Below are positions 3,957 to 45,543 of a stretch of 45,543 bases of DNA, one piece after another (position 1 is the first letter of the stretch; the number at the start of each line of letters is the position of its first letter). Source of the DNA: a virus. The translations under genes were made by a program, and so were the position numbers. The stretch is from the IMG/VR virus record IMGVR_UViG_3300028607_003795, positions 1-45,543 of that record. One strand, given 5' to 3'. The notes below the pieces were generated by a model. It did no database searches, was not told the origin of the DNA, and was given only the letters and a program-made list of their open reading frames with translations.

Positions 3957-3980
3957 AATAGCATATTATAGGAGATTTCA

Positions 3981-19254: not shown

Positions 19255-19262
19255 GAGACTTC

Positions 19263-25703: not shown

Positions 25704-26819
25704 ATGGCCACTACAGACGTCAATATTAGAACAGTAACACTTATGGAAGCCGAAAGCCGCCTTGTTAGAGCTTTTCGGCTAAAACGACCAGTGTTTCTTT
25801 GGGGAGCACCAGGGGTCGGCAAGAGCGAGCTCGCCAAGCAGATTGCAGACAAAAAGTACTTGGGCAATACGCTGTTAATTGATTTGCGTGTTGCGCTCTT
25901 TGAGCCTACAGACATTCGGGGGATGCCATTCTTCAACAGCGACTCCGGGTTAATGGAGTGGGCACCCCCTATTGATTTGCCTACAAAGGATCTTGCTGCT
26001 AAGTATGATGCAGTAATTTTGTTTCTAGACGAAATGAACGCTGCGGCACCAGCTGTACAGGCTGCTTGTTACCAGCTAATTCTTAATCGGCGTGTTGGTA
26101 CTTATAAGTTGCCCGATAATGTAGTAATTATGGCAGCGGGTAACCGCGAAACCGATAAGGGCGTTACTTACAGGATGCCTAGCCCGCTTGCTAACCGGTT
26201 TATTCACCTCGAAGTTCGTGTGGATTTCGATAGCTGGTTCAATTGGGCAGTTGATAACAAAATTCATGAAGATGTGATTGGTTACATTTCGTTTGCTAAG
26301 CAGGATTTATTTAACTTTGATCCGCGGTCAAGCGGTCGTAGTTTTGCCACTCCGCGGTCTTGGACTACAGTAAGCGAGTTTTGCTACGACGAAGATATTA
26401 CCGATGGCGAATTGACTGACTTGACGTCGGGCACTATTGGCGAAGGAACCGCAATCAAGTTTATAGCGCACCGGAAGGTTTCCGCGGACATGCCTAAGCC
26501 TAGCGATATTCTTGCTGGCAAGGTAAAAGAGCTTAAGATTAAGGAAATCTCGGCACAGTATGCATTGACAATTGGTATGTGCTACGAGCTAAAGGAGGCT
26601 TACGACAAGTTCGGTAAGAAAGACACCAAAAAGTGGCACAAACTAGCCGATAACTTCTTCCGGTTTATGATGGACTTCTTCCCCACGGAAATGACTGTTA
26701 TGGGTGCGCGTACAGCAATTACCAACTACAACTTGCCGTTCGATCCTAACAAGTTGGAAAATTTCAAGGAGTTTTTCGACAGGTTTGGCAAGTATGTTGT
26801 CAAGGCAATGGAAGCCTAA
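25704..26819 (+). CDS. MoxR-type AAA+ ATPase
   Basis: This 371-residue protein has the Walker A motif Gly-Ala-Pro-Gly-Val-Gly-Lys-Ser (residues 34-41), Walker B Ile-Leu-Phe-Leu-Asp-Glu-Met-Asn (near residue 105) and a sensor 1 region Val-Ile-Met-Ala-Ala-Gly-Asn-Arg-Glu (near 147). MoxR ATPases typically work with a VWA-domain partner to insert metals or assemble complexes. The likely partner is the VWA gene at 30076, under a near-identical promoter. The gene is visibly GC-richer than most of the window. Confidence 0.85.
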   Translation: MATTDVNIRTVTLMEAESRLVRAFRLKRPVFLWGAPGVGKSELAKQIADKKYLGNTLLIDLRVALFEPTDIRGMPFFNSDSGLMEWAPPIDLPTKDLAAKYDAVILFLDEMNAAAPAVQAACYQLILNRRVGTYKLPDNVVIMAAGNRETDKGVTYRMPSPLANRFIHLEVRVDFDSWFNWAVDNKIHEDVIGYISFAKQDLFNFDPRSSGRSFATPRSWTTVSEFCYDEDITDGELTDLTSGTIGEGTAIKFIAHRKVSADMPKPSDILAGKVKELKIKEISAQYALTIGMCYELKEAYDKFGKKDTKKWHKLADNFFRFMMDFFPTEMTVMGARTAITNYNLPFDPNKLENFKEFFDRFGKYVVKAMEA

Positions 26820-27097: not shown

Positions 27098-27274
27098 ATG
27101 ACATTTAAACATGTTGAAATATTTCTTTTGAAAGAGGGCGAATTATCTATTGATGGCCAAACTAAACCGGCTGGAAATCTTTCAATTCGTGAATTTGAAG
27201 ATGATGAATGGGTAGGTGGCTCTTATGCTACCTATGACAATCTTGCAGAAAAGGTCAAAGAGGCTTTAGAGTGA
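27098..27274 (+). CDS. small acidic hypothetical protein
   Basis: This 58-residue frame from ATG 27098 to TGA 27272-27274 has a tggagga ribosome binding site at the right distance. The product is acidic and begins Met-Thr-Phe-Lys-His-Val-Glu-Ile-Phe. Its stop overlaps the GTG start of gpsA (GTGA), so gpsA translation may depend on it. It is AT-richer than gpsA. No family is recognised. Confidence 0.6.
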   Translation: MTFKHVEIFLLKEGELSIDGQTKPAGNLSIREFEDDEWVGGSYATYDNLAEKVKEALE

Positions 27275-28281
27275 CAGTCGACATCGTTCGTAAGCACGTC
27301 GGCATCATTGGCGGTGGTGCTTGGGGCACAGCACTTGCGGCAACATTGTACCGCGCTGGCCGCGAAGTTACCGTGTGGGCTCGCGAACCGGAGGTTATTG
27401 AGGCAATCAATCGGCATCACGTGAACAGTGTTTTCCTTCCTGGAATTCCGCTTAACCCTAAAATTCGGGCTACAGCAGATCTCGCGCGAACAGCCGATGC
27501 CGACATAGTTTTGTTGGTTGTGCCGGCGCAGCACACGCGCAGCGTTTGCCGCAATCTACGCCCGCATTTTCAACCGGGTGGTCGCGTTATTATCTGCACT
27601 AAGGGAATAGAAACAGGCAGTTTAGCGTTGATGAGCGAAGTAGTAGCCGATACACTCGGCGATGCACGCATTGCCGTTCTGTCTGGGCCAACGTTTGCGG
27701 CTGAGGTCGCGCGTGGCATGCCGAGCGCGGCAACTGTAGCTGCAGCAAACATGCCGGTCGCTGGGCAACTTGCGAAGGAAATCGGCAGCGTTAACTTCCG
27801 GCTCTATCATACTAGTGATGTAATTGGCGTTCAGATTGGAGGCGCAGTCAAGAACGTAATCGCGATCGCATGCGGCATCGCTAATGGCCGAGGATACGGC
27901 AAAAATACGAGCGCCGCGCTAATCACTCGTGGGCTTGCTGAGATGGCGCGGCTGGGCGCGGCGCTTGGCGCCAGCCGCGAGACGCTAATGGGGCTCTCGG
28001 GCGTCGGCGACCTGTTGCTAACGTGCGGCTACGAGCAGTCGCGCAACTTGACGCTCGGCATCGCGCTTGGCCGCGGCGCAGCGCTTGCCGACTACCTCTC
28101 CCGCCAGGTTAGCGTTGCCGAAGGCGTTGCAAGCGCAGCCGCCGTCGCTGCGCTCGCTGTGCGCCACGAAATCGATATGCCGATTGTTTCGGCTGTAGAC
28201 GCAGTGCTCAATCACGACGTTGATATTGACCATACAATCGCCGCCCTGCTCGCACACCAATTCATTCCCGAGGCCATGTAA
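27271..28281 (+). CDS. gpsA: NAD(P)-dependent glycerol-3-phosphate dehydrogenase, GC-rich, apparently foreign
   Basis: GpsA reduces dihydroxyacetone phosphate to glycerol-3-phosphate for phospholipid synthesis. This 336-residue protein has full bacterial length and signatures: Ile-Gly-Gly-Gly-Ala-Trp-Gly-Thr-Ala-Leu (Rossmann, residues 13-22), Ser-Gly-Pro-Thr-Phe-Ala (near 139), Gly-Ala-Val-Lys-Asn-Val (catalytic Lys, near 192) and Gly-Leu-Ser-Gly-Val-Gly-Asp-Leu (near 243). The GTG start overlaps the previous stop. Its DNA stands out: 42 of the 60 bases at 27961-28020 are G or C, in an AT-rich genome. It reads like an intact gene from a GC-rich, perhaps alphaproteobacterial, donor (inference). 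Confidence 0.93.
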   Translation: MTVDIVRKHVGIIGGGAWGTALAATLYRAGREVTVWAREPEVIEAINRHHVNSVFLPGIPLNPKIRATADLARTADADIVLLVVPAQHTRSVCRNLRPHFQPGGRVIICTKGIETGSLALMSEVVADTLGDARIAVLSGPTFAAEVARGMPSAATVAAANMPVAGQLAKEIGSVNFRLYHTSDVIGVQIGGAVKNVIAIACGIANGRGYGKNTSAALITRGLAEMARLGAALGASRETLMGLSGVGDLLLTCGYEQSRNLTLGIALGRGAALADYLSRQVSVAEGVASAAAVAALAVRHEIDMPIVSAVDAVLNHDVDIDHTIAALLAHQFIPEAM

Positions 28282-30049: not shown

Positions 30050-30075
30050 ATAAGTAGGACATGGGAGCAAAGATT

Positions 30076-31380
30076 GTGACAACTACCACTACTGCTAACA
30101 AAAAAAACATTCAGATTCCTGTAGGATTTGAGACAAATCCTATTGATGATGCTGATGCTCGCGAAGCGTTAACCACCGCGCGGGTTGGGCTTTTGCTCAA
30201 AGCGGTTTGGTTTGGTAACATGGCTACGCGACTTCCACTTGTTAACGCTGATGCGTGGTTGCCTACGGCAGCTACCGATGGTCGCTACTTTTATTACAAT
30301 AGCAAGTTTGTTAATATGCTTCGCGGCAAAGAGCTTGAATTTCTATTTGGCCACGAAGTGCTTCATAATGTTTACGAGCACCTTGGTCGTAGCAAAGACA
30401 ATAACCATAATCCGCAGCTTAGTAACATTGCAGCCGACTTTGCTGTAAATCGCGACTTAATTGAAGCTCGTATTGGAGAGAAGATTACCACTGTTCCTTG
30501 CTTGTATGATCGCAAATACAATGGTAAGAGCTACGAAGAAATTTACGATGATCTTTATGAAAATATTAAAAAGATTGACATTGATTCTCTTATTGACATG
30601 ATGTTGGACGAGCACCTAGATGGTGAGAATAACGAAGGCAGTGGAGCAGTCGGCGAAGGCAAGCCCGAGGAAGACGAAAACGGTAACCTTGTTAGCAAGA
30701 GCAAGCCTACGTATAGCGAAGCAGAGAAGAAGAAGATTCGCGATGAAATTAAAGGATCGCTTATTAACAGTGTTCAGCAGGGTGACGCTGCTGGCAACAT
30801 TCCAGCTGGTGTAGAAAGGATGATTAAGGACCTAACAGAGCCTAAAATGGACTGGAGGGAACTAATTGACCAGTCAATTGAAAGCACTGTCAAGAGCGAT
30901 TTTAGTTGGATGCGAATGAGTCGCAAGGGATGGCACACAAACGCTATTTTGCCCGGGATGGTTCCTGAGACAACCATTGATATTTCCATTGCTATTGACA
31001 TGAGTGGTAGTATTAGCAACGAGCAGGCGCGGGACTTTTTCTCAGAAGTTAAGGGCATTATGGAAATGTTCACAGACTTCAAGATTCGGTTGTGGTGTTT
31101 TGACACTGATGTGTACGGTTACGCCGAATTTGATTCAACTAATTTAGACGACATAATGAAGTATGAACCAATGGGCGGCGGTGGTACTGATTTTATGTGC
31201 AACTGGGAGTTCATGAAAGAAAACGACATTCTTCCAGAGCGGTTCATTATGTTTACAGACGGTTTTCCGTGCAGTAAGTGGGGCGATGAAAACTACTGCG
31301 ATACAGTATTCATCATTCACGGCCCGGAATCAATCATACCGCCCTTTGGTAATTACGCTTACTACGATCATAAGCATTAA
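30076..31380 (+). CDS. DUF2201-like metallopeptidase plus VWA-domain protein, partner of MoxR
   Basis: The N-terminal part has a zinc-type Gly-His-Glu-Val-Leu-His motif (near residue 95). The C-terminal part has a VWA-type metal site, Ile-Asp-Met-Ser-Gly-Ser-Ile-Ser, and a later Gly-Gly-Gly-Thr-Asp. An acidic linker lies between. This combination occurs in DUF2201-type proteins next to MoxR ATPases. GTG 30076 is chosen as start (434 residues) because gggag at 30063-30067 is correctly spaced and ATG 30061 sits at the presumed transcript start. The leader parallels that of the MoxR gene. The stop overlaps the minus-strand gene by 4 bases. Confidence 0.8.
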   Translation: MTTTTTANKKNIQIPVGFETNPIDDADAREALTTARVGLLLKAVWFGNMATRLPLVNADAWLPTAATDGRYFYYNSKFVNMLRGKELEFLFGHEVLHNVYEHLGRSKDNNHNPQLSNIAADFAVNRDLIEARIGEKITTVPCLYDRKYNGKSYEEIYDDLYENIKKIDIDSLIDMMLDEHLDGENNEGSGAVGEGKPEEDENGNLVSKSKPTYSEAEKKKIRDEIKGSLINSVQQGDAAGNIPAGVERMIKDLTEPKMDWRELIDQSIESTVKSDFSWMRMSRKGWHTNAILPGMVPETTIDISIAIDMSGSISNEQARDFFSEVKGIMEMFTDFKIRLWCFDTDVYGYAEFDSTNLDDIMKYEPMGGGGTDFMCNWEFMKENDILPERFIMFTDGFPCSKWGDENYCDTVFIIHGPESIIPPFGNYAYYDHKH

Positions 31381-33585: not shown

Positions 33586-33810
33586 ATGCCTGCATCTTAT
33601 ATTATCGATATTATGGAAAAAATAAATTGTGATGATAGATATAATTTAACAATTGTTGCATTTCACATAGCGAGAACTTATAAGGTTTCCCCTGCAAAAG
33701 CCCTAGAACTTCTAAATAGTAATCAAGTAAACTTTAAAGATGCGGAAGAATTGTTTATTAAAAGCTTACAAAAAATTCAACCTAAGGAAGCGAAGAACAC
33801 AAATGAGTAA
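33586..33810 (+). CDS. small hypothetical protein
   Basis: This 74-residue, helical, charged protein ends in the epimerase start region (8-base overlap). An actggaga ribosome binding site precedes the ATG. A Ala-Arg-Thr-Tyr-Lys-Val-Ser-Pro-Ala-Lys-Ala segment looks like a helix-turn-helix-like turn, but not convincingly. No family is recognised. Confidence 0.5.
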   Translation: MPASYIIDIMEKINCDDRYNLTIVAFHIARTYKVSPAKALELLNSNQVNFKDAEELFIKSLQKIQPKEAKNTNE

Positions 33811-34762
33811 TGTGCTCGTTGTTGGTGGCATGGGCTTTATAGGACACAATTTAGTAAGAATATTAGAACAAAACAATCACCAAGTTAACATCATTGATAA
33901 TTTAACAACCTATGATATTATCGATCGCAATAAACTAGAGCCAATAATTTATGAACGTGCAAAACTAATTAAATCCGAAGGTACTCTTGCTGACATAGAT
34001 GATCGGGATACTATTTTTAATTTATTTGAAGAGTATAAGCCAGACATCGTTGTGCATCTAGCTAGTTTCCCAAGCCAAAAAATAGTGCAACATAACCCCA
34101 ACCTTGCTGCAAGAACTATGATTGAAGGGTTAATAAATGTTCTAGAAGCAAGTGTAGCTAATAACGTTAGGCGTTTTGTATACATTAGTAGTAGTATGGT
34201 ATACGGGGACTTTAAGGGAGTTGTGACTGAAACAACAGAATGTAAACCAAAAGGGCAGTATGGAATTCTAAAATTAAGTGGCGAAATGCTTGTGAAAGAT
34301 TACGGCTATCGAACAGGCATGGAATATGTTATTGCACGGCCAAGTGCTGTATACGGTCCCCGAGATTTAGGCGAAGAACGTGTTGTTAATAAATTTATAA
34401 AAGCCGCTTCCCAGGGTAAAACTTTATACGCCAACGGCGGCGAAGAAAAACTAGACTTTACATATGTAGACGACATAGCTCAAGGCATATATTGTTGCGT
34501 TACATCTGATAAAGCAAAAAACAATATATTTAATATAGCTAGAGGCAAAGGTGTTAAAATATGCGAAGCAGCACTATTAATAACAGAATTGATAGGAAAA
34601 GGAATTGTTGTAATTAAAGAAAAAGACAAAAATCAACCCAGCAGAGGCGAGTTAAGTATAGGCAATGCAATATATAATATTGGATATTACCCTCAATTTG
34701 ATTTAAATAAAGGATTAAAAGAAACAATTGCTTGGTACAATATATTTACATTATCTAAATAG
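33803..34762 (+). CDS. NAD-dependent sugar epimerase/dehydratase (SDR family)
   Basis: ATG 33803 gives 319 residues. The Rossmann motif Gly-Gly-Met-Gly-Phe-Ile-Gly-His (residues 7-14), a Ser-Ser-Ser-Met-Val-Tyr-Gly segment and the catalytic Tyr-Gly-Ile-Leu-Lys (Tyr-x-x-x-Lys) are visible, as is the Arg-Pro-Ser-Ala-Val-Tyr-Gly-Pro stretch common in nucleotide-sugar enzymes. It is probably a UDP-sugar epimerase or dehydratase. It precedes a DegT aminotransferase by 13 bases, so the two likely make an amino sugar. Confidence 0.85.
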   Translation: MSNVLVVGGMGFIGHNLVRILEQNNHQVNIIDNLTTYDIIDRNKLEPIIYERAKLIKSEGTLADIDDRDTIFNLFEEYKPDIVVHLASFPSQKIVQHNPNLAARTMIEGLINVLEASVANNVRRFVYISSSMVYGDFKGVVTETTECKPKGQYGILKLSGEMLVKDYGYRTGMEYVIARPSAVYGPRDLGEERVVNKFIKAASQGKTLYANGGEEKLDFTYVDDIAQGIYCCVTSDKAKNNIFNIARGKGVKICEAALLITELIGKGIVVIKEKDKNQPSRGELSIGNAIYNIGYYPQFDLNKGLKETIAWYNIFTLSK

Positions 34763-34775
34763 ATTATATAACCAT

Positions 34776-35723
34776 ATGGGCGCTGATTTACAGTCTATGA
34801 ACGACACAGTTCTAAAAAGTGGGCACCTGGTGCTTGGTAAATTTACAGAAAAATTAGAAGAAAATATAGCACAGGTTTGTAATGCAAAATATGCTGTTAC
34901 AGTAGGCAGCGGCAGTGATGCACTATATTATGGGTTGGTTGCTCTTAACATAAAGGGCAAAGTTGCTATTCCGGCACAAACATATATTGCTACAGCAACT
35001 AGTGTTAGTCGTGCAGGATGCACACCTGTTTGTGTAGATGTTAAGTCAAATGGTTTACTAAATTGGAACAAAGTACCCAAATCTATAAACACTATAGTTT
35101 GGGTAGGACTATTTGGTAATATTGAAGAATTACCCAAGAATAAATTTATAATTGAAGACGGAGCACAGCATTTTGGTGTGCCTTTACACAGTAAACTTGC
35201 TAGTTACAGTTTTGACCCAACAAAAAATCTTCCGAACTTTGGTACTGGAGGTGCTGTTGCTACTAATGACAATGCGATTGCAGAAAATATAAAAGCACTA
35301 CGCAGGCATGCTACTGTCAATAACCATGTTGGCGGTAACAGTTGCATGAGTGAACGAGAATGTGCTGAAATGCTAGTTAAGTTAAGTTATTTTTCTGGCT
35401 GGCAAAAACGTAGGCAAGAAATTGCACAAAAATATATAGAAGGATTTGGAGACCTAGTAGAAATAATTACGTCTCTCGAAGGCCAATGTACAAAATTTGT
35501 AATAAGTAGCTCTAGTAGAAACGAACTAGAAAGTTGGCTACAAGAAAAACAGATAGAAACTAAAAGAGTATATAATCAGGCACTTAGTAAATTATTTTGG
35601 TGCACAGATTTTTGTTTGCAAGCTAACGCAAATTGTGAAAACTTTTTAAGTCTTCCAATTGATCCTTACTTAACAGATAAAGAAATATCAAAAGTAATAC
35701 GAAGTGTTAAGGAATTCTTCTAA
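34776..35723 (+). CDS. DegT/DnrJ/EryC1-type sugar aminotransferase
   Basis: ATG 34776 is 13 bases after the epimerase stop (315 residues). PLP-site landmarks: Gly-Ser-Gly-Ser-Asp-Ala-Leu near residue 46, Glu-Asp-Gly-Ala-Gln-His-Phe-Gly near residue 124 (Asp binds the pyridine N), and Tyr-Ser-Phe-Asp-Pro-Thr-Lys-Asn-Leu near 141, where Lys forms the Schiff base. The family transfers an amino group to keto sugars. It is shorter than typical members (about 370). It stops exactly against the end of the minus-strand gene, with no terminator between. Confidence 0.85.
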   Translation: MGADLQSMNDTVLKSGHLVLGKFTEKLEENIAQVCNAKYAVTVGSGSDALYYGLVALNIKGKVAIPAQTYIATATSVSRAGCTPVCVDVKSNGLLNWNKVPKSINTIVWVGLFGNIEELPKNKFIIEDGAQHFGVPLHSKLASYSFDPTKNLPNFGTGGAVATNDNAIAENIKALRRHATVNNHVGGNSCMSERECAEMLVKLSYFSGWQKRRQEIAQKYIEGFGDLVEIITSLEGQCTKFVISSSSRNELESWLQEKQIETKRVYNQALSKLFWCTDFCLQANANCENFLSLPIDPYLTDKEISKVIRSVKEFF

Positions 35724-36995
35724 CTACCCCCATTTATTATCAAAGAAGTTTTTAAGCCAAGACCACTCAAAACTAAGTTGTAAGTCTTCTCCACTTTCCA
35801 CAAATTTAACAGCATCATTTGCGCCCCGTAAACTCCACTTGGCATGATTTCCTTGAGCTACTGTGCGCCATGTTTTAAGTCGATATCGGCTTTCTACATC
35901 ATCTTGTTGCGTAAGTTTAACGCATTCTCTAAACGCTGTACGCCATGTGCTAAAAGGATCAGTGTTAAATTCTGCTATACTGCCTACAATAGGAATTACA
36001 CCGTGCTTTGCGCTAAGTGTAAAATCTAACCCCCACGTCTCAGCATTTAACACTAGTTGCTTATGGTATATAATAATACCCATGTGTCCATACTCTAATC
36101 CATTAACAGGATTATGGCTATAAAATATCCAATGCTTCGGGCCCTGTAACCAATCCGGCTGTAAGTTAAAATTAAAATTCTCTTTAACAACACATTTAGC
36201 AAACACATTAAAGAACCATTCTGTATCACTAACTTCTGCACAAGCTTTATATGCTTGCGCTCTACCTGTTATATTGTCAATTCGTTTCGCTCTTGGGCAT
36301 AAATTTTTGAGTAGGTCCCAGTTTCTTTCGGCGTTTTTTTCGCCATTCGAAAGATATACTACATCTAGTGGTTTTTCTTCTATATTATAGTCGGTATGAC
36401 GCAATATGTATGGGTAATCATAAAACTGTCCCTTAAAATGCGTTTTACAGTCTCTGGGCACCAACACTACACTACCGCTATGTGTAAAGACGTGTAAATC
36501 GCGTTTTTTCCATAAACACGGCTCATAGTCTATATTTGCAGGTGTTTTCTTTATCCAGGCATATAGTGTGGTTAGCTCATCTAAATTATCAATTGTAGGC
36601 CACTCAAAACGAGGTATATAGGGCTTACTATGCCAATTTATATGCTCGTACCACTCTAGTAACCTTAACCTCGCTTGTTGACGCTTAAAAGCTGCTACAG
36701 GCACTAAAAACGTGTCACCAAATTGTTGGTTGCCACTAGCCCAACAATGTATTTGATCTGCTTCCCAGGGCACGGGCTGCCAGGTAAAATTAAAGTTACT
36801 ATAATCACATAAATCACTAACTACCCACACATATTCTGTTCGAGTGCGATTTACACATCTGCGTATAGTATCCAAATGTGTATCATTCCAACGAGTATAT
36901 TGTGTGTGTGCAGGCAATTTTAGGAAATTGCCGTCGACACACGTGTGACGCAGACCGCGAAGACCGCCCATTGCCATGCAAAATATGTCAAACAT
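35724..36995 (-). CDS. large hypothetical protein, glycosyltransferase-like at best
   Basis: This 423-residue protein is rich in Trp, Tyr and His (Phe-Tyr-Ser-His-Asn-Pro-Val-Asn-Gly; Trp-Ile-Phe-Tyr-Ser). A Val-Val-Tyr-Leu-Ser-Asn-Gly-Glu-Lys segment and spaced Asp residues recall glycosyltransferases of the kind found beside carbamoyltransferase clusters in marine phages, but I see no decisive motif. It is the last gene of the minus-strand operon, 19 bases after dCMP deaminase. Function is unknown; a role in the same pathway as its upstream neighbours is inferred. Confidence 0.6.
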   Translation of the reverse strand: MFDIFCMAMGGLRGLRHTCVDGNFLKLPAHTQYTRWNDTHLDTIRRCVNRTRTEYVWVVSDLCDYSNFNFTWQPVPWEADQIHCWASGNQQFGDTFLVPVAAFKRQQARLRLLEWYEHINWHSKPYIPRFEWPTIDNLDELTTLYAWIKKTPANIDYEPCLWKKRDLHVFTHSGSVVLVPRDCKTHFKGQFYDYPYILRHTDYNIEEKPLDVVYLSNGEKNAERNWDLLKNLCPRAKRIDNITGRAQAYKACAEVSDTEWFFNVFAKCVVKENFNFNLQPDWLQGPKHWIFYSHNPVNGLEYGHMGIIIYHKQLVLNAETWGLDFTLSAKHGVIPIVGSIAEFNTDPFSTWRTAFRECVKLTQQDDVESRYRLKTWRTVAQGNHAKWSLRGANDAVKFVESGEDLQLSFEWSWLKNFFDNKWG

Positions 36996-37014: not shown

Positions 37015-37524
37015 TTATTCTTCTAGAAGATCTGAAATCTGCTCAATATTAATATTACATTTACAAAGGAATTCTATACCATCTTTGGTCCTATAACTGT
37101 GTGTATAGTAAACTTCTTTTATACCAGATTGATATATTCCTTTAGCACATTCTAAACAGGGTTGATGTGTAGTAAATAAGGTAGCCTCGTCTCCACTTTC
37201 AGTACATCTAGCTAACTTCATTAAAGCATTCATTTCAGCGTGGAGTACTTCTGGCTTAGTAACAAGTTTATATTTTCCTTCATAATCTTCTAGCGGCCAT
37301 TGCTTTTGAATTTCATCAGGATCAAGCCGTACACCAGAAGTTTCCGGCATATACTTTTTATATTCACATTCATTAGTCCACCCCGCGGGTGTTCCGTTCC
37401 AGGAAAATGATATAATATTATTATTTTTTACAATTACACATCCTACCTGTAGGCGCTTGGCCCTGGATAATTCCGAACATAAAAATGCTACTTTCATGTA
37501 AAAATTTATCATTCGTTTATTCAT
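37015..37524 (-). CDS. dCMP deaminase
   Basis: This 169-residue protein has the zinc/catalytic His-Ala-Glu-Met-Asn near residue 95 and the Pro-Cys-Leu-Glu-Cys pair near 121, the classic cytidine/deoxycytidylate deaminase site. A Val-Gly-Cys-Val-Ile-Val segment and a Cys/His cluster near the middle also occur in T4 dCMP deaminase (gene cd), which binds a second zinc. It produces dUMP for ThyX. It lies in the minus-strand operon with a 56-base gap to the upstream gene. Confidence 0.85.
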   Translation of the reverse strand: MNKRMINFYMKVAFLCSELSRAKRLQVGCVIVKNNNIISFSWNGTPAGWTNECEYKKYMPETSGVRLDPDEIQKQWPLEDYEGKYKLVTKPEVLHAEMNALMKLARCTESGDEATLFTTHQPCLECAKGIYQSGIKEVYYTHSYRTKDGIEFLCKCNINIEQISDLLEE

Positions 37525-37580: not shown

Positions 37581-37883
37581 CTAAAACCAACCCATCATCA
37601 TTTTTGTTTCTTCCGACACATTGTCTATACTAAACTGTGGTTCAAATACCAATTCACGTTCTACCGTTTTTACACCGTCTACATGAAGTACGGCATCATA
37701 TATGTCCTGACAAATCTGATCTGCAAAAGGGCACATCATGCTTGTTAATGTGTGTTTAACATGACAATGAGCTTCATCTATATTAATATCATAAATTAAT
37801 CCAAGATCATAAACGTTTATGCTAATCTCGGGGTCGTAAACTTGTCTTAAGCTTTCAATAACTTTTTCTTTATCTATGAACAT
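37581..37883 (-). CDS. MIP18/SufT (DUF59) iron-sulfur assembly protein
   Basis: This 100-residue protein has the DUF59 signature Val-Tyr-Asp-Pro-Glu-Ile-Ser-Ile-Asn-Val-Tyr-Asp-Leu-Gly-Leu-Ile-Tyr near residues 15-31 and a Met-Met-Cys-Pro-Phe-Ala segment (residues 49-54) with the conserved Cys. Established knowledge: SufT/MIP18/PaaD-type proteins help mature iron-sulfur proteins. At least five radical-SAM enzymes encoded on the same operon need [4Fe-4S] clusters, so a maturation role for them is attractive (inference). It overlaps the carbamoyltransferase gene by 10 bases. Confidence 0.8.
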   Translation of the reverse strand: MFIDKEKVIESLRQVYDPEISINVYDLGLIYDINIDEAHCHVKHTLTSMMCPFADQICQDIYDAVLHVDGVKTVERELVFEPQFSIDNVSEETKMMMGWF

Positions 37884-39364
37884 ACTTTTACTCCATATTT
37901 TTTCTCAAACCTGTCAGCATCCGCTCTATCATTAACCATGGGTTCACCACGAATGTTTAGGCTTGTGTTTAATAACATTGGGCAATCTGTTAAAGTGTAC
38001 CACATTTCAAGCAATCTCCTTGCTCCAGTTTTATCATCTTTACTTACAGTCTGAACGCGACTTGATCCATCAACATGAACTATTGCTGGGAACAAATGTG
38101 GATTTTTGCACTGGAAAATATATTGCATAAATGGGCTTTCGGCCAATTTGTTTTTTATCATTTTTCCTGGCAGCTTGATTATAGGTGCTGGTTGCTTAAT
38201 TTCGGGCCCTTGTATAGCTACAAATGGCCACGAAAAATTTTCGTTTAAAAATTCTTTAAGTATCATAGGAGCAAATGGTCTAAATTTTTGCCTACGCTTA
38301 ATCTCGTTAACTCTGTCCTTTATTTCAGGTTCGCGCGGATCTGCAAGTAAGCTACGATTACCTAATGCTCTAGGCCCAAACTCTGCTCTACCACTTGCTA
38401 CCCCTACTATTTTATTATTAATAAGTTCGCTTATTATTTCTTCACAAGGATATTTGCCTGGGATATTAGTACCAAGATATGGCCCTTGCCAATTTAACCG
38501 TTTACCGTAAGCTAATGCTGCGGCACCTAAACTGCTACCACAATCTCCAGGGTTAGGCATTATCCATACATTATTCCACAATTGTCTTAAATGACTGTTA
38601 GCTACACAATTAAGTGCAACACCACCCATAAACACGCAATTTCTAATATTAGGATAAGCTTTATATAATTGCATCATTATAATTGTTACACAATGTTCTG
38701 TTATTGCTTGTGCGGCAGTTGCTATGTCTTCGTTTTTTGCGCCCTTAAGCCAATTTTTGTCTACACCAATGTGTAAGTTTTTCTTCCAAGTTTGTTTGGT
38801 GTCTTTATCTACAAACTCGCTATACATTTTTTTATACCATATGTTCTTACCGTACGCTGCCATTCCCATTAAAATATATTCTTCTTCCAATGGCTTTAAA
38901 CCAGCGCGTTGAGTCATTGCACTATAAAATAATCCTAAACTATGAGGGTAATGCTGTTGCATAACACGCTTATATTGTGCGTAGCCGTACTTGTCATAGT
39001 AAGCAAGCCATGCTGTATAAGTGGCGTGGCTAAGGTGGTGCTTATGACATTTTATTGGCACGGTAAAATTATAACCTAAGGAAGCTAGTTGCTGTTTGGG
39101 TAAATCTCTTAAACTAAAAGCTCTAGAATATTCACCACTATATAATTGTCTAGTTTTCTTTAGCCATGGCTTTTCGTACCACGCAACTTGTTTAGGGTAA
39201 CCGTAGCTTAACGCTTCGTCAAGAATAGCGGTGTTAAGCGTTGGGTCGTTTTTCTTTTTACTATAGCGTTCAGCATGAGCAGCAAACAAAATGTCTCCAT
39301 TAGTGTTAACTACGCTTACACCAGCATCATGAAATCCAGCACTTATACCTAAATAATTACTCAT
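37874..39364 (-). CDS. NodU/CmcH-type carbamoyltransferase
   Basis: This 496-residue protein begins with the ASKHA-type Gly-Ile-Ser-Ala-Gly-Phe-His-Asp-Ala-Gly (residues 6-15) and has His-His-Leu-Ser-His-Ala near residue 105 (iron or metal ligands in the YrdC-like lobe family) and Ala-Glu-Phe-Gly-Pro-Arg-Ala-Leu-Gly-Asn-Arg-Ser near 320, the carbamoyltransferase C-terminal signature. Family members carbamoylate sugar or antibiotic hydroxyls using carbamoyl phosphate. The start overlaps the tiny upstream gene by ATGA. The acceptor is unknown; a phage glycan is the usual guess. Confidence 0.9.
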   Translation of the reverse strand: MSNYLGISAGFHDAGVSVVNTNGDILFAAHAERYSKKKNDPTLNTAILDEALSYGYPKQVAWYEKPWLKKTRQLYSGEYSRAFSLRDLPKQQLASLGYNFTVPIKCHKHHLSHATYTAWLAYYDKYGYAQYKRVMQQHYPHSLGLFYSAMTQRAGLKPLEEEYILMGMAAYGKNIWYKKMYSEFVDKDTKQTWKKNLHIGVDKNWLKGAKNEDIATAAQAITEHCVTIIMMQLYKAYPNIRNCVFMGGVALNCVANSHLRQLWNNVWIMPNPGDCGSSLGAAALAYGKRLNWQGPYLGTNIPGKYPCEEIISELINNKIVGVASGRAEFGPRALGNRSLLADPREPEIKDRVNEIKRRQKFRPFAPMILKEFLNENFSWPFVAIQGPEIKQPAPIIKLPGKMIKNKLAESPFMQYIFQCKNPHLFPAIVHVDGSSRVQTVSKDDKTGARRLLEMWYTLTDCPMLLNTSLNIRGEPMVNDRADADRFEKKYGVKVCS

Positions 39365-39471
39365 TTGTAAATAAACGGATCCCTTTTTCTAAGCTCTTTA
39401 AGTCTTTTTCTATACTGTATTTCTAATTTAATTCGATTATATAACATTTTAAACCAATTTATTATTATCAT
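39361..39471 (-). CDS. 36-residue basic microprotein between carbamoyltransferase and upstream gene
   Basis: This frame is short but coupled on both sides: its ATG overlaps the TGA of the upstream gene (39468-39470) and its own TGA overlaps the ATG of the carbamoyltransferase (both ATGA). The product begins Met-Ile-Ile-Ile-Asn-Trp-Phe-Lys, is strongly basic, helical, and ends Arg-Asp-Pro-Phe-Ile-Tyr-Lys. I recall tails of this type (Lys-Arg-Asp-Pro-Phe-Ile-Tyr) beside such carbamoyltransferase genes in marine phages, but not a function. Such double coupling is hard to obtain by chance. Confidence 0.7.
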   Translation of the reverse strand: MIIINWFKMLYNRIKLEIQYRKRLKELRKRDPFIYK

Positions 39472-40610
39472 CTTAGTTCCTCTATCTGTTTTTCGATATA
39501 TTTCGGACTACTCCAATGGTAATCGTACGTACAACTATATTTTCCGCACTCAATCTTATATATGTCTAAGTAATTCCCTAATATTTTCCAAATTTCTTGT
39601 GCATTAGTTGTTCCAAAACTCTTTTTTAAATTAATTTGGCCAATTTTTAAATAACCCAGGCTAAGTTTTGGGTTATGAGGATTTAAATTATTTTGTTTTA
39701 ACCATTTAGTAAACTGGTCCATATCTTCCGCGTGAAAAATTTTAGTGTCTTTTGTAACCGTATTTCCCCATTCTATATCAAACTCTCCGCTATAATATTG
39801 TAAGTGCGTAATAGCTTTACATGTGCTATCTGTTAACACTGGCGCATCTTCGTCTCTCCACACCTCAAATAGTGTTTTTCCAAGTTGACACCAATGCATG
39901 TACACACCACCGAATTCTCTATTATAACTATTTTCTAAAAATCCTTTTCTATGCTTATCATTGAGATTAAATCTAGTAGCTTTAAAAAATGTAGTAATCT
40001 GGCTTGGACGAACCCAAAATGGTTCAATTTCTAGCTTTCTTTCGCTAAGACAAAGAGTTTCAATTTCATGACATAAATTATTTAACTGCCTAATAGCGTG
40101 TTTTATTGCGTGCGTTGCTGTTGCAAAGTATTTACTCGGTTTTTCAACTGTACCTTGTAAACATTCAAAATGATTGTGAAGCCTGTTCATTATGCCATGT
40201 TTTACTCTTAAACCAAGTGACTTAGATAAATCAGGAAAGTTTTCTGCTGTATTAACTGTACCAATTGGATAATTATGAGGGAATCTTACTGCCTCAGGGT
40301 AGAAATGTTCTTCTATAATGTATGGTTTTAATCCAGCGCCTTGCCATATGTCAGTTCTGTTAAAACGATTGATGTTATGTATATGAATATTTAATTCGCC
40401 ACAAAGATAATATAAATTACGTTTACTATGCGGGAAGCCGTGAAAACAATAATTTTTTTCTAAGTGCTTAGAATTTTGTAGTATGTCGGTTTGTAAAGCA
40501 TGCACCCAGTCACGCCCAAGTTCGTTATCTACTGTGCGAATATCATAGTCGATAAGGTTGTTACTACCTATAACACTATAGTCTCGTAATATAACTTTAA
40601 CTGATTTCAT
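39468..40610 (-). CDS. hypothetical 380-residue protein in the radical-SAM operon
   Basis: No family is recognised. The protein has many His (Phe-His-Gly-Phe-Pro-His near residue 57; His-Ile-His near 75; His-Asn-His near 145), many aromatic residues, and two Cys near its end. The His content could mean metal binding. It overlaps the radical-SAM gene upstream by 14 bases and the microprotein downstream by 4, so it is an integral member of the operon and may be the substrate carrier, an oxygenase or an accessory protein of the radical-SAM set. Confidence 0.65.
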   Translation of the reverse strand: MKSVKVILRDYSVIGSNNLIDYDIRTVDNELGRDWVHALQTDILQNSKHLEKNYCFHGFPHSKRNLYYLCGELNIHIHNINRFNRTDIWQGAGLKPYIIEEHFYPEAVRFPHNYPIGTVNTAENFPDLSKSLGLRVKHGIMNRLHNHFECLQGTVEKPSKYFATATHAIKHAIRQLNNLCHEIETLCLSERKLEIEPFWVRPSQITTFFKATRFNLNDKHRKGFLENSYNREFGGVYMHWCQLGKTLFEVWRDEDAPVLTDSTCKAITHLQYYSGEFDIEWGNTVTKDTKIFHAEDMDQFTKWLKQNNLNPHNPKLSLGYLKIGQINLKKSFGTTNAQEIWKILGNYLDIYKIECGKYSCTYDYHWSSPKYIEKQIEELR

Positions 40611-41946
40611 TCCACCACTTTAATAGTTTTGGATATGCTTCTAAACAATGCTGCATACTGTAGTTACTGGGTCTACGATTCTCTAGTGTTCTTATACGTT
40701 CTTTGCCGCGAATCATGCCATTATTATACACTTCTTTTTCGTACGTATCTATAAATGTATCCGACCTTTTAAGGTTCTCAAGTACATTAATTAGGGGCTG
40801 CTGTTTAGGTGTATAGTCTTTACAATATTCTAAACAATCATCGACGATTTCATCTAATATATCTCTTGGTACAGCTCTAGGACACATTATAATTTCAGGG
40901 GTAAAAGCAAAGCAAACTTTAGTAAGTAATTGTACATCCAACTCCTTACTAAGATCATACATATTCTTAATTTCTGTAAGGCCTGGTGTAGTAAGGGTGA
41001 AGTCCAAACGCATTTGTCTAGGGTTTGTTGAATAAGTAATTCCTTCGCGAAAATTATTTAGCCACTTATTATAGTTTAACCCTGTTCTAATATATTCTCC
41101 AGTTTTTCCGGTGCCGTCAAGGCTGGCGCCTATTTGCCAATCTCTAACATGAGATAAAATATCACGCCAAAGATGGGAGGTTCCATCACTAATACGAGAA
41201 AGATTTGTATTATACCTAGCGTATAAATTCGGTCCATCTCCTAACTCCACTATTCGTTTCATATAACGCCAATGTTGTTCGTACATTAAAGGCTCCCCGC
41301 CTACCCAATATATCTCCTCTATCAAGTGTTCCTCTACTGCACGACTAAATTCTTCCTCAACAACTGTCTTTTGAAATTTATTAATAGCTTCTCTATGTTT
41401 CATCCATGGTTGATGGTCTGTTACACTCTCACCACCGAATTTACGTTCCTCTGATTCCCAGCTACTACTAAGCATTGGACCACACATTCGGCATTTAAAG
41501 TTACATAGGTTGCTAAAGCGGTAATCCCAGCTAACAGGCTTCATGGTTGTATAACCTGTTTTATCTGTGCTTTCTATAACTTTATTGTAGTGATGTTTAA
41601 ATAAATGCCAAAAATAATCTCTATATACATCGGTATTAAGTTCACCAGTATTACATACTTGACATTCGGGTAGTTCCTCTCCAGCAAGCATACGTCTACG
41701 AACACTACGCATATGTTCGCTATTCCAGTGTTCATCTAAACTAGGTAGATATATTTCTTGCTTGCTCTTAAGATAGTCCATAACTTCTTCTTTGCTTTTA
41801 TTTTTAAGTTCGCGCGGGCTATCAATATATTGTTTAAAGTTAATACTTGGTTCGCGACTTGTACAGCAAAGTCTACGTTCGCATTGCGGAGACATATAAG
41901 TGTGCGTCCATGGAGCCATGCACAATGATTCTGGTTTATTTTTCAC
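40597..41946 (-). CDS. radical SAM protein with twitch/SPASM-like N-terminus (RS1)
   Basis: The GTG start at 41946-41944 follows an aagga ribosome binding site that lies inside the 48-bp repeat; length is 449 residues. The radical-SAM cluster site is Asn-Leu-Cys-Asn-Phe-Lys-Cys-Arg-Met-Cys (CxxxCxxC, near residue 150). At the N-terminus Cys9-x-Ala-Pro-Trp, a Cys-Cys pair and, further on, a CxxC give an auxiliary cluster, shared with the paralogues upstream. Trp-Val-Gly-Gly-Glu-Pro-Leu is the SAM-binding GGE motif. The substrate is unknown. Confidence 0.88.
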   Translation of the reverse strand: MKNKPESLCMAPWTHTYMSPQCERRLCCTSREPSINFKQYIDSPRELKNKSKEEVMDYLKSKQEIYLPSLDEHWNSEHMRSVRRRMLAGEELPECQVCNTGELNTDVYRDYFWHLFKHHYNKVIESTDKTGYTTMKPVSWDYRFSNLCNFKCRMCGPMLSSSWESEERKFGGESVTDHQPWMKHREAINKFQKTVVEEEFSRAVEEHLIEEIYWVGGEPLMYEQHWRYMKRIVELGDGPNLYARYNTNLSRISDGTSHLWRDILSHVRDWQIGASLDGTGKTGEYIRTGLNYNKWLNNFREGITYSTNPRQMRLDFTLTTPGLTEIKNMYDLSKELDVQLLTKVCFAFTPEIIMCPRAVPRDILDEIVDDCLEYCKDYTPKQQPLINVLENLKRSDTFIDTYEKEVYNNGMIRGKERIRTLENRRPSNYSMQHCLEAYPKLLKWWNEIS

Positions 41947-42042
41947 ATAAGTATCCTTGTTTCTATAAATCTCTACTTACTGCAAGCTACTCTGATAAGT
42001 ATCCTTGTTTCTGTAAATCTCTACTTACTGCAAGCCACTCTG
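41947..42042 (-). repeat. 48-bp tandem duplication at the junction of two radical-SAM genes
   Basis: Two head-to-tail 48-base units (41947-41994 and 41995-42042) differ at only two positions. The downstream unit has a TAG where the upstream unit has the codon TGG, so RS2 ends within the duplicated DNA. The duplicated part also carries the aagga ribosome binding site ahead of RS1. The unit is 16 codons long. Confidence 0.92.
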
Positions 42043-42976
42043 AGTGCAAATCATTTTGTTGATCCGTTAAATCGTGTTCATAAAAATTATGCCAGGTACC
42101 CCAATCTTCTAACAATGTAAAACAAGGTTTTGCATTATAATGTTTGCATAATTCAATAAATGGATATACATCCTTCAAATTATTTTTTTGTATTACAAAA
42201 TAGAACTCCAATGGCATATCGAAGTTAGTACTTAAGAAATCTAGATTTTTTATAAGACTATTAAAATCCCCGGGGGGTCTAACTATACTATATACATCAC
42301 TAGTAGCTGCATCCATACTAATTTGTAAAGTTTTTATTTGATTAAATGCTGGATATGTCATTAACCTTTTTTCAATAAGCAATCCATTTGTTTTAATTAT
42401 TAATTCTCTAGTTTTACTTTCATTTAATTTATACATAAAGTCTTTATATAGAATACTTGCAAATGGGTCACCATCAGCACCCAATATAATTTCCAATGGA
42501 TCAGTATAATTGTTAATTAGATTAACTAAATGATTAAACTGTGTTTTCTTTTTTTCATATGCCGATCCTGTTTTATAAAATATAAAACATTCTCTGCAAC
42601 TAGGACACCGTAAATTACAACTGTTATCAATACCAATATGCAAACACTTTTTATTGTTATGTGAGTATTTACTGTTTTGTAAAATTCCACAATTTGCAAC
42701 TGAACAAAATTTGAAACTACCACCTAATGATGTACTGTCCTGAAGTTTTCGTGCAATAGGATTAGTGTAAACATCATCCAGTGTTGCAAAATCTGTAATT
42801 ACTCCACTAGGAAAAGGCATCCAGCCATCACAAATACAATGAAAACATTTACCATCATTGTCTATGTTAACATTATTATTGGGTACAGTACAAAATCTAT
42901 TCTCAAGATTAATTTTACGCGGATACTTCCTGTGCTTCCAGGTATATTTTAAATTTTCACTTAACTTATAACTCAT
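41987..42976 (-). CDS. radical SAM protein (RS2)
   Basis: The start is likely ATG 42976, whose ATGAGTTATAA overlap with the upstream stop mirrors other junctions here (329 residues); ATG 43015 would overlap by 50 bases. The radical-SAM site is Asp-Asn-Ser-Cys-Asn-Leu-Arg-Cys-Pro-Ser-Cys (CxxxCxxC). Upstream a Cys-Phe-His-Cys pair and further Cys residues could hold an auxiliary cluster. The C-terminus ends within the 48-bp tandem repeat, where a TGG has become TAG. It is more divergent than RS3-RS4. The substrate is unknown. Confidence 0.82.
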   Translation of the reverse strand: MSYKLSENLKYTWKHRKYPRKINLENRFCTVPNNNVNIDNDGKCFHCICDGWMPFPSGVITDFATLDDVYTNPIARKLQDSTSLGGSFKFCSVANCGILQNSKYSHNNKKCLHIGIDNSCNLRCPSCRECFIFYKTGSAYEKKKTQFNHLVNLINNYTDPLEIILGADGDPFASILYKDFMYKLNESKTRELIIKTNGLLIEKRLMTYPAFNQIKTLQISMDAATSDVYSIVRPPGDFNSLIKNLDFLSTNFDMPLEFYFVIQKNNLKDVYPFIELCKHYNAKPCFTLLEDWGTWHNFYEHDLTDQQNDLHSEWLAVSRDLQKQGYLSE

Positions 42977-44126
42977 ATTGAATAACTTGTGCCATTTTAG
43001 TATGTGTCTCTGCAAAATTTTGATTTCTATATAGATCAGTTACTCTTATTTTCTTAATTAAATCAGCACTGTCTTCTTGCATACTAGAAACTACAATTTT
43101 TTTAAGACTGTGTATATCTGCTGCATAATTGTTCCATATAACTTGTTGTTTTTGCAAGTACGACATTACTGGAGCTTTTGCACTGCGTGGCGTCTTTGTT
43201 AGGCTGTACTCCCATGGGTCGTGCATAAGGTTAAAATGTATGTCATTAAAATTCTTTGTTTCCGCCCAAGTTAGTACGTCATTTAAATAGTAAATATTTT
43301 GAATATTCCAAGTGCAGCACAATTGAGTTGTTATTGGGTACTGTTCCCTAAGGTTATTAATCTTATCAATGTTTGTATTTACTGTGTGCCACTTAGCACC
43401 GTCTCGTTCATATTCAAATCGTTTACCGGTGTTATCTATACTAAAAGCAATCTGAACATGTTTAAAATGCTGCCACAGTTTATGTTGCTTGGGAAATCGT
43501 GTAGCATTAGTATTATAGTGAATATCTATATCTTTAGCTAACCCTTTGTCAACTGCACGTTGTAATAAGTCAAAATGTTGTTTTATTAAAAAGGGTTCGC
43601 CGCCTGTAAACTCAAAGTACTTAATGTCAGGAAGTATAGTATCAATGTGCTCCCAAAATTTACGACTTTTACGTGGCCATTGTCCTTGCTTAAACCACTG
43701 ACTTGCTATATGTTTTTTACCATGCTGTGCAACTTCTTCTTGTGCCCATTTACTACTTGACCAACTACCGCATATGCGACACTTAAGATTACAGATATTA
43801 CCAAGTTTAAGATCTAAGAATTGCAACTTACTGCCTAGATTAGTAGTATAATCTTCTTTAACGTGCTTGAATTTTTCCAACATATATTGTCTTTTGCTTT
43901 TTTTGCCTGCATTTTCTTCTAACCAACAACGTTCACACCCCTCAGGTTTTTCACCTCTGCGAAAGCTTCTTCTTAAGTCACGCATACCTTTACTGTTGAA
44001 AGCGTCTTCCAATGTGTTCGTTGTAAGATCAACACCGGCTATTTCTTCTGTGTGCAAACAACATGGCCTGACACCACCAATTGGTGTTGTTTCCAAACTA
44101 ATCCATGGAAGTATGCATTTATGCAT
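42966..44126 (-). CDS. radical SAM protein with twitch/SPASM-like N-terminus (RS3)
   Basis: This 386-residue protein starts Met-His-Lys-Cys-Ile-Leu-Pro-Trp-Ile, with Pro-Cys-Cys-Leu at about residue 21 and a CxxC at about residue 60: an N-terminal auxiliary cluster. The radical-SAM site is Asn-Ile-Cys-Asn-Leu-Lys-Cys-Arg-Ile-Cys; the Thr-Gly-Gly-Glu-Pro-Phe motif follows. It is clearly paralogous to RS1 and RS4. It overlaps RS4 by 8 bases. The C-terminus has an Arg-Asn-Gln-Asn-Phe segment like the tail of the partial upstream copy. Confidence 0.88.
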   Translation of the reverse strand: MHKCILPWISLETTPIGGVRPCCLHTEEIAGVDLTTNTLEDAFNSKGMRDLRRSFRRGEKPEGCERCWLEENAGKKSKRQYMLEKFKHVKEDYTTNLGSKLQFLDLKLGNICNLKCRICGSWSSSKWAQEEVAQHGKKHIASQWFKQGQWPRKSRKFWEHIDTILPDIKYFEFTGGEPFLIKQHFDLLQRAVDKGLAKDIDIHYNTNATRFPKQHKLWQHFKHVQIAFSIDNTGKRFEYERDGAKWHTVNTNIDKINNLREQYPITTQLCCTWNIQNIYYLNDVLTWAETKNFNDIHFNLMHDPWEYSLTKTPRSAKAPVMSYLQKQQVIWNNYAADIHSLKKIVVSSMQEDSADLIKKIRVTDLYRNQNFAETHTKMAQVIQYEL

Positions 44127-45432
44127 AATTTTTTAATTCCGATAATTCTGGAAATACTGTAAAGAAGTTTTCCTCTCGATGCTTGTCCAGCTGGTCGAAC
44201 TTTTTTAAAAGCTCGGGTATTAATTTGCTATTATCTGTTGCTTGCATATAGTTTATTGCACTCTTAAAACCTTGTGTAGCTCGGCTTAAACTATCCTGGG
44301 GTTCTAGCCATACAATATGCTTTTCATAAAGTTTAACAATTTCGTTTTTCATTTCTTTTGGTAATACGTCTAGTCTATAATATTCTGGATCTAGTAGAAT
44401 GTTAATATTAAAATCCTGCGCTTTAATAAGTCCCCGATCTGTCCACTCTTTGTGAAAGTCTACTATATTATAACTGTTCATTATACTTAATGTAGTGCTA
44501 ATAAAGAAATCAACTGTAGGACATTTTTCTAACATACGCTCTCTATTAGTAATGATTTCTTTCCAATCAAGGCCATAACGCATAAGTTCTCCGCGTTTCC
44601 AATTAGCATCTAAACTTGCTCCTACACTAACACAATCAAATTGATTCCATAAATCTAATATGTCTGTATGCTTAAACACAAGTTTTGTAAAGTTTGTATT
44701 ATAATTAAGACGTACATCTGTACGACCTCTACGTAGTAATTCTTGTAGTAAATTATAGTGTTCTACCATTATTAGCGGCTCACCACCTGCAAAATAAATA
44801 TTTTCGATATAATCCATGTGAGGTTGTAACTGCTCCCACATATCCATTTCATAGCGTCCGGCATAATTTACATTAGGATGACCTTGTTTTAGCCAACCCA
44901 TTTTCTTTGCTTCTTTTACCCAGTTACTTGAAAAAATATCTCCGCAGGTTCTGCAACTTAAATTACATAAATTACTAAAACGGATATCATAGTACTTGAG
45001 TTCAAATCGTTCCAGTGTACCATCTTCTTTAGTTTCATCTATTATACCGATGTGATGTCCCATGTTTTTATTTTGTGCGTTTCGCATACTAAAAAATCCA
45101 TTACGCTCTAGCTCGTAACATCTAGTGCATTCTCCACATGTTTTATCCTCGAGCATATTTTTACGCATTTGTTTTAATGGGTCACCGTTCCAAACTTCTT
45201 TCATTGTTTGTTTGTTAAAATTACCAATTGGCTTGTTCATAATACTTAAACAACATGGGTATGCTCGGCCATCAGGAAATGCATGTAGATGTATCCATGG
45301 AAGAATACAGAACGTGTCACTAGCTAATAATCTGTGAACTTGTTTTTCTGACAAATCCTTTACATCGACATAAACAGGCTTACGTGTCTGATAGTCATAA
45401 TTTTTATAATAATTTTCTAGTTTATCTGTCAT
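44119..45432 (-). CDS. radical SAM protein with twitch/SPASM-like N-terminus (RS4)
   Basis: This 437-residue protein begins with about 35 extra residues, then Phe-Cys-Ile-Leu-Pro-Trp-Ile-His ... Pro-Cys-Cys-Leu-Ser and a CxxC near residue 100, the auxiliary cluster also seen in RS1 and RS3. The radical-SAM site is Asn-Leu-Cys-Asn-Leu-Ser-Cys-Arg-Thr-Cys; Phe-Ala-Gly-Gly-Glu-Pro-Leu follows. The tail Phe-Pro-Glu-Leu matches the end of the partial gene upstream, whose stop it overlaps (ATGA). The substrate is unknown. Confidence 0.88.
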   Translation of the reverse strand: MTDKLENYYKNYDYQTRKPVYVDVKDLSEKQVHRLLASDTFCILPWIHLHAFPDGRAYPCCLSIMNKPIGNFNKQTMKEVWNGDPLKQMRKNMLEDKTCGECTRCYELERNGFFSMRNAQNKNMGHHIGIIDETKEDGTLERFELKYYDIRFSNLCNLSCRTCGDIFSSNWVKEAKKMGWLKQGHPNVNYAGRYEMDMWEQLQPHMDYIENIYFAGGEPLIMVEHYNLLQELLRRGRTDVRLNYNTNFTKLVFKHTDILDLWNQFDCVSVGASLDANWKRGELMRYGLDWKEIITNRERMLEKCPTVDFFISTTLSIMNSYNIVDFHKEWTDRGLIKAQDFNINILLDPEYYRLDVLPKEMKNEIVKLYEKHIVWLEPQDSLSRATQGFKSAINYMQATDNSKLIPELLKKFDQLDKHREENFFTVFPELSELKNYA

Positions 45433-45543
45433 AGTGTATCATACCATTCTGCTAACTCTGGAAAAGTTTTTGAAAAGTTTTTGTTTCTACGAATATCATA
45501 TTGTGTGTAAAATTGTTTAAAATCGTTGTGCAATTTAGGCATT
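45429..45543 (-). CDS. C-terminal end of a fifth radical-SAM-type protein (partial)
   Basis: An open minus-strand frame enters from the right edge and stops with TGA at 45431-45429, overlapping the RS4 start. Its last residues, Arg-Arg-Asn-Lys-Asn-Phe ... Thr-Phe-Pro-Glu-Leu-Ala-Glu-Trp-Tyr, resemble the ends of RS3 and RS4, so it is probably another paralogue whose bulk lies outside. An ATG at 45542 is internal if that reading is right. Confidence 0.65.
   Translation of the reverse strand, partial: MPKLHNDFKQFYTQYDIRRNKNFSKTFPELAEWYDTL

Follow-up and report, generated by a model that had tools for sequence, protein, structure and literature searches.

A conserved viral array of radical-SAM genes as a candidate module for glycan assembly and decoration

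The virus record IMGVR_UViG_3300028607_003795 of the IMG/VR collection, analysed here over its whole length of 45,543 bases (the window), carries on its minus strand a gene module that runs inward from the right edge and in which an array of radical S-adenosylmethionine (SAM) enzymes is followed by a virus-specific protein of 380 amino acids (aa) termed H380, a microprotein and an O-carbamoyltransferase (CT). Related viral loci contain orthologues of these genes, belonging to the same families and arranged in the same order. The reading favoured here, with belief and doubt in about equal measure, is that the module serves the assembly and decoration of a phage-encoded glycan, employing radical C-H chemistry and ending in O-carbamoylation. 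A more specific proposal is put forward tentatively, namely that a widespread group of uncultivated T4-like phages, jumbo phages included, may encode a five-step radical-SAM pathway to a glycan or sugar without a known cellular counterpart. In this proposal H380 would be a virus-specific enzyme or scaffold with a new fold, and the RDPFIYK microprotein (33-36 aa) a small subunit of phage O-carbamoyltransferases.

The radical-SAM core

The array enters the window with the C-terminal tail of an RSB orthologue (45430..45543, minus strand like all genes of the module), which is cut by the contig edge and scores about 54 bits against the profile of RSB, the enzyme that precedes RS1 in relatives. It is followed by RS1 (437 aa, 44119..45432), RS2 (386 aa, 42966..44126), RS3 (41987..43015) and RS4 (449 aa with a GTG start, 40597..41946), all four of which match the Radical_SAM family and contain a CX3CX2C motif (CNLSCRTC, CNLKCRIC, CNLRCPSC and CNFKCRMC, respectively). 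RS1, RS2 and RS4 share CxxPW...CC...CxxC ahead of this motif, as an earlier sequence-only reading had claimed for three of the four complete enzymes, and score 398.7, 329.2 and 286.4 bits against NF033640, a subfamily-type model with a curated cut-off of 170 bits that is named by its domain, the N-terminal twitch, and not by a reaction. RSA (274 bits) and RSB (294 bits), both measured in locus L021, belong to the same family. RS3 does not: it lacks CxxPW, scores 32 bits against NF033640 and has its best NCBIfam match in TIGR04317 with 54.7 bits, all below the cut-off. Its start is probably an internal ATG near 42976, no relatives of it were found in the IMG/VR scan and its very long branch has no reliable placement in the radical-SAM tree. 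RS3 is an unrelated insert among the core enzymes, in a variable slot between RS2 and RS4. Of the at least five adjacent, overlapping radical-SAM genes of the sequence-only reading, four are complete and one is cut by the edge, but RS3 and RS4 are separated by a gap of 40 bases, and of the complete enzymes only RS1, RS2 and RS4 form one family.

When 76 radical-SAM proteins, drawn from 14 loci with some outsiders added, are placed in a maximum-likelihood tree, RSA, RSB, RS1, RS2 and RS4 fall into five separate orthologue clades with support of 100/96 to 100/100, those of RSA and RSB being sister clades (99/99). Identity is 45-75% between orthologues and about 22-25% between paralogues. The tree thus rules out a recent tandem duplication of the radical-SAM genes, for which it had been proposed as a check; the idea of an expanded biosynthetic operon survives as that of a multi-enzyme operon including the CT. 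Since the clades are separate, the array is old with each enzyme kept apart, and the retention of each of the five argues for distinct steps or roles. Radical-SAM enzymes are typically few per pathway, and those with auxiliary clusters catalyse dehydrogenation, epimerisation and cross-linking. RS1 and RS2 form a single 851 aa reading frame in loci L020 and L024 and are also joined in L074 and L101. Cells rarely carry NF033640 members: of 299 genomes from one phylum, 3 gave matches above the cut-off, and of 14 controls none did.

The related loci were chosen by the presence of H380, so that the fractions given here and below describe H380-bearing loci near the query, and some of the loci are near-duplicates. 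Among the IMG/VR loci with both RS4 and H380, the order RSA-RSB-RS1-RS2-RS4-H380 is kept by the genes present in 79 of 79, so that the arrangement is not a product of chance. Spacings of 20 nt or less are found between RS4 and H380 in 95%, between RS1 and RS2 in 91% and between RSB and RS1 in 86% of the loci. Sixty-two loci reach as far as orf423, the conserved end gene of the module; the microprotein is present in 51 of these and the CT likewise in 51. The virus records behind the loci contain between 5 and 16 radical-SAM genes each. A T4-type capsid gene was found in 12 of 18 such records and in both named phages searched alongside, and since several records measure 289 to 340 kb, jumbo T4-like phages are included. 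Two further arrangements were observed: in L009 a B12-binding radical-SAM gene (2501-3985) is inserted between RSA and RSB, and a 46.9-kb contig of a metagenome-assembled genome (MAG; G021 contig C6, L231 and L232) has many twitch-type radical-SAM genes in succession, next to glycosyltransferase genes of the c16/c25 type described below.

H380, the microprotein and the carbamoyltransferase

Downstream of RS4 the sequence-only reading had placed an unknown His-rich protein, a microprotein coupled on both sides, a NodU-type CT and a MIP18/SufT protein, and all four are present. H380 (39468..40610) contains 20 histidines (5.3%) and has no family match in the scans. A single-sequence search returned relatives in 21 loci, and an alignment search in at least 520 stretches of IMG/VR, of which the best 80 were kept. 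Just four MAG contigs carry H380 in GTDB (84,980 species), and no relative was found in 50,697 phage records. The AlphaFold2 model of H380, built from 15 sequences, has a predicted local distance difference test score (pLDDT) of 80.8 and finds no match in the PDB, by fold (Foldseek) or by sequence; against viral models, Foldseek returns eight uncharacterised phage proteins that resemble H380, including one from Agrobacterium phage Atu_ph07. The residues kept among the relatives include H145, E149, N177, H181 and E184, which might form a metal site.

The microprotein (36 aa, 39361..39471) ends in RDPFIYK, is kept in relatives and shares an ATGA start/stop overlap with H380 on one side and with the CT on the other. 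The search pattern K-(R/S)-DPFIYK, which by our own estimate would be expected by chance about once in the collection, was found at at least 120 stretches. A stop codon directly follows the pattern in 76 of 80 loci, and a CT lies within 2.2 kb downstream in 55 of the 60 pattern loci with enough downstream DNA, while H380 is near in just 18 of 80. In several pattern loci without a CT the next gene is, by eye, SGNH-like, pyrophosphorylase-like or a twitch radical-SAM gene. With a looser motif applied to the H380 loci, 65 of 66 copies end in DPFIYK and one ends in Y; the invariance of the C-terminus is partly fixed by the strict pattern but much less so by this looser motif. A divergent copy (SDPYIYEE) precedes the CT in Marine virus AG-345-D19, and a tblastn search of INPHARED found no microprotein, although the low-complexity filter may hide matches.

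It has to be considered whether the radical-SAM enzymes act on a ribosomal peptide, i.e. the microprotein, or on a virion protein in the manner of the SPASM maturases. Such a role would be suggested by the presence of a 36 aa gene inside the operon, by the frequency of twitch/SPASM domains among peptide maturases and by one enzyme of the Atu_ph07 array whose nearest relatives are the peptide maturases DynA, PapB and DarE. However, the microprotein tracks the CT and not the array, and the genes around it are sugar genes. The hallmark of a radical-SAM-made ribosomally synthesised and post-translationally modified peptide, a precursor with a variable core tied to the radical-SAM genes, was not seen in the microprotein, whose C-terminus is invariant, or in a non-exhaustive survey of other small open reading frames. 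Peptide or protein modification is therefore judged unlikely, and the microprotein as precursor for the array is rejected as the leading interpretation; the proximity of the CT in most pattern loci and of H380 in few marks it instead as a companion of the CT or of a glycan island.

The CT (496 aa, 37874..39364) contains both Carbam_trans domains, N-terminal (PF16861, 160.7 bits) and C-terminal (PF02543, 86.3 bits), as well as the motifs HHLSHA and EFGPRALGNRS, and is thereby a member of the NodU/TobZ family. It resembles NodU, TobZ and GdmN in its two domains and in the HHxxHA and GPRALGNRS motifs, and differs from them in its coupling to a conserved microprotein, which we have not seen described. 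Its relatives in the PDB include TobZ, and it also resembles GdmN and the novobiocin carbamoyltransferase. NodU/TobZ enzymes carbamoylate hydroxyl groups on small molecules, sugars among them.

A metagenomic phage enzyme of the NodU family produces 5-carbamoyloxymethylcytosine from 5-hydroxymethylcytosine (5hmC) in DNA (PMC8670742). By analogy, the CT could carbamoylate a hydroxymethylated base while the radical enzymes modify bases further. CTs of the 5hmC class co-occur with dCMP deaminase (PMC8670742), and the module does have an optional dCMP deaminase gene (37015..37524, PF00383, phrog_174), present in 27 of the 62 loci that reach orf423; QueD- and QueE-type genes also lie in the window. 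The residues by which the 5hmC class is told apart lie at the positions of W408, G421 and R423 of TobZ, and the tested 5hmC enzyme has C and T at 421 and 423 (PMC8670742). When this numbering is placed on the module CTs by means of the EFGPRALGNRS motif, 55 of 55 orthologues show the canonical G421 and R423; the residue at 408, V or I, is uninformative. Among 11 thymidylate synthases from related records, 10 carry the asparagine (PFN) typical of the dUMP type and none has PFD, and no thymidylate synthase of the same family was found in the window fragment. Furthermore, glycosyltransferase neighbours are reported for the CTs of unmodified contigs (PMC8670742). Because neither the marker residues nor the thymidylate synthase type fits, carbamoylation of 5hmC DNA is unlikely, and hypermodification of DNA or nucleotides as a whole is considered quite improbable.

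The MIP18/SufT/PaaD-like protein of presumed Fe-S assembly (100 aa, 37581..37883) matches PF01883 with 63 bits against a cut-off of 23.5, and TIGR02945 with 105.9 bits, which is under the cut-off of 143.4. T4-like environmental viral genomes with up to 12 radical-SAM genes and paaD, such as TARA_ERS488813_N000010, have been described (PMC5332604). They resemble the module in that a single T4-like genome unites many radical-SAM genes and a gene of the MIP18/PaaD type, but were read in terms of Fe-S metabolism, with neither gene order nor a biosynthetic operon discussed (PMC5332604). On that reading the radical-SAM enzymes and SufT would serve general Fe-S needs of host or virus. Here, SufT is an optional slot gene present in only 6 of the 62 loci, so that the putative Fe-S maturation factor of the operon is present in the window but not as a rule, and the radical-SAM enzymes all come from one subfamily and sit together with sugar genes in an operon of fixed order, unlike scattered host-like metabolic enzymes. 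A purely auxiliary role in Fe-S metabolism is accordingly the least probable of the explanations weighed here.

Sugar genes and the proposed pathway

The module ends with orf423 (35724..36995), which is conserved in relatives, and is faced on the plus strand by genes for a DegT/DnrJ/EryC1-type aminotransferase (34728..35723; PF01041, 164.7 bits) and a NAD-dependent epimerase/dehydratase (33740..34762; PF01370, 163.5 bits); the former is found in 55 and the latter in 44 of the 62 loci. A ferredoxin-NADP-reductase-like slot gene occurs in three. Upstream of the core in relatives lie two families (c16 and c25) with a profile match to glycogenin-1 of the GT8 glycosyltransferases (E 1.8e-4); individual members returned no significant Pfam match. 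Six slot families (c51, c135, c140, c118, c43 and c75) form one SGNH-like superfamily according to profile comparisons, DUF6071/GDSL matches and a GDS motif. An APS-kinase-like (c17) and a cytidylyltransferase-like gene (c36) sometimes form one reading frame, and further slots hold an epimerase (c40), a serine hydroxymethyltransferase (L008) and the B12-binding radical-SAM enzyme of L009. Another superfamily, to which no named family corresponds, unites c39, c98, c95, c117 and c124; c39 matched no known family and shows, by eye only, a likeness to the GT10 'TEK' motif. Judging from these matches, most of the assignable slot genes serve sugar activation, transfer or decoration. The sequence-only reading had left the substrate as glycan, nucleotide or peptide, and the GT8-like, SGNH, aminotransferase, epimerase and nucleotidyltransferase neighbours narrow it to a probable glycan.

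It is proposed that nucleotide sugars of the host or phage would be processed by the epimerase and the DegT aminotransferase and built into a glycan by the c16/c25 glycosyltransferases, possibly with orf423. The five radical-SAM enzymes with their auxiliary clusters may then each perform a different C-H step, such as dehydrogenation or epimerisation, on the sugar or glycan, with H380 working together with RS4. The SGNH proteins and the CT would finish the glycan by acylation or O-carbamoylation, the microprotein helping or anchoring the CT, while SufT, and elsewhere the ferredoxin-NADP-reductase-like protein, could support Fe-S loading and electron supply. Either the virion or the host surface may display the finished glycan. 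That viruses keep five diverged radical-SAM enzymes in a conserved order suggests unusual C-H chemistry, directed at a structure relevant to infection, for instance in receptor masking, superinfection exclusion or the virion coat. Both H380 and the RDPFIYK-carbamoyltransferase pair are candidates for new protein families that lend themselves to testing and count hundreds of members among viruses, and the genes of the module form a well-defined set that could be expressed heterologously.

Several observations weigh against a glycan pathway. The closest relatives of the radical-SAM enzymes with solved structures are distant (E 0.002). The dCMP deaminase has no sugar role, and the surroundings of the module in the window are nucleotide and replication genes with no identified tail module. 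Orf423 as a glycosyltransferase is weakly backed: an apparent internal repeat was seen by eye, its model has a pLDDT of 62 and its matches to sugar-nucleotide transferase folds are weak, so that the protein is only tentatively termed GT-A-like. H380 matches no fold in the PDB, and about ten divergent loci have it without an adjacent twitch radical-SAM gene or outside any such array; in seven loci (L085, L090, L091, L100, L103, L104 and L107) it directly follows a PTPS gene with an overlapping start. The role of H380 is therefore broader than the array, and it is ruled out as a strict partner of the radical-SAM enzymes. Some of these PTPS-H380 phage contigs also encode SufE, an A-type carrier, Nfu, SufT, TctA or a UV-endonuclease.

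The existence of H380 beside PTPS without the array also raises the question of whether two independent modules merely adjoin each other, a radical-SAM/H380 unit and an ordinary glycan-decoration island. Variable slots do part RS2 from RS4 and H380 from the CT, and about nine loci (e.g. L009, L010, L058, L061, L065, L070, L096 and L099) have the core and orf423 without microprotein or CT. Against such a division, the core genes and orf423 lie on one strand in a fixed order in the 62 loci, and glycosyltransferase-type genes flank the radical-SAM core on both sides, so that only a small share of belief is assigned to it.

Related systems and other genes of the window

Part of the system has precedents. 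In pelagimyophages, a hypervariable 'host recognition cluster' contains radical-SAM cassettes among GT8 genes and is read as modifying the host surface (PMC7029224). These cassettes resemble the module in that T4-like marine phages carry radical-SAM genes among GT8-type glycosyltransferases with a proposed role in surface glycans, but the available part of that account contains no fixed five-enzyme core, H380, microprotein-CT pair or orf423 (PMC7029224). Thus multi-radical-SAM T4-like genomes with paaD and radical-SAM cassettes beside GT8 genes are already published, and the proposed new phage modification pathway holds as the best reading while its novelty is reduced by these precedents (PMC5332604; PMC7029224). 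A search of open-licence papers returned no account of the ordered five-enzyme core, of H380 or of the microprotein-CT pair.

Among isolates, the jumbo Vibrio phages K566/K567 and Agrobacterium phage Atu_ph07 have three to four adjacent radical-SAM genes with genes for proteins of about 300 aa and no known role between them. The radical-SAM proteins of K566 share only 24-25% identity with RS1/RS2; one of them exceeds the NF033640 cut-off and another falls slightly short of it. Three of its genes lie close together with a fourth on the other strand (L230, 161.5-168.3 kb), making K566 a possible laboratory model. Atu_ph07 has four neighbouring radical-SAM genes, and the enzyme scanned has a C-terminal SPASM domain, unlike the N-terminal twitch enzymes of the module. 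One Atu_ph07 protein has the H380-like predicted fold noted above; it may be the 300 aa product AUZ94948 encoded beside a radical-SAM gene, the two being linked by equal length only. By sequence profile no H380 relative was found in either K566 or Atu_ph07, and a profile comparison of H380 with the neighbour proteins of both gave nothing significant.

Outside the module, the plus strand of the window contains a QueD/PTPS-like gene overlapping a QueE-like gene with the motif YSIQGEG (18746-20138). The 304 aa gene after PTPS was considered as a possible H380 and rejected, being QueE-like instead. A FolE-like reading frame (16218-16679) was recognised by eye and, together with the QueD/QueE-like genes, makes up part of a 7-deazaguanine pathway. 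Further sugar genes encode a UDP-glucose/GDP-mannose dehydrogenase (11967-13145, plus strand) and a sulfotransferase-like protein (8750-9427, plus strand). The DNA polymerase is encoded in two overlapping reading frames (4257-5621 and 5533-6885, plus strand), which may represent a real split, as PHROGs has separate families for the N- and C-terminal parts, or a frameshift. Other plus-strand genes encode a SAICAR synthase (PurC) homologue (20233-20982; E 3.7e-62 to PDB 3kre), a 4-hydroxyphenylpyruvate dioxygenase-like protein that is odd for a phage (13665-14660; PF14696 and PF00903) and a full NAD-dependent glycerol-3-phosphate dehydrogenase, GpsA (27271-28281), here in a phage contig. A MoxR-type AAA ATPase (25704-26819) and a DUF2201 VWA/metallopeptidase protein (30061-31380), both on the plus strand, are likely to form a pair.

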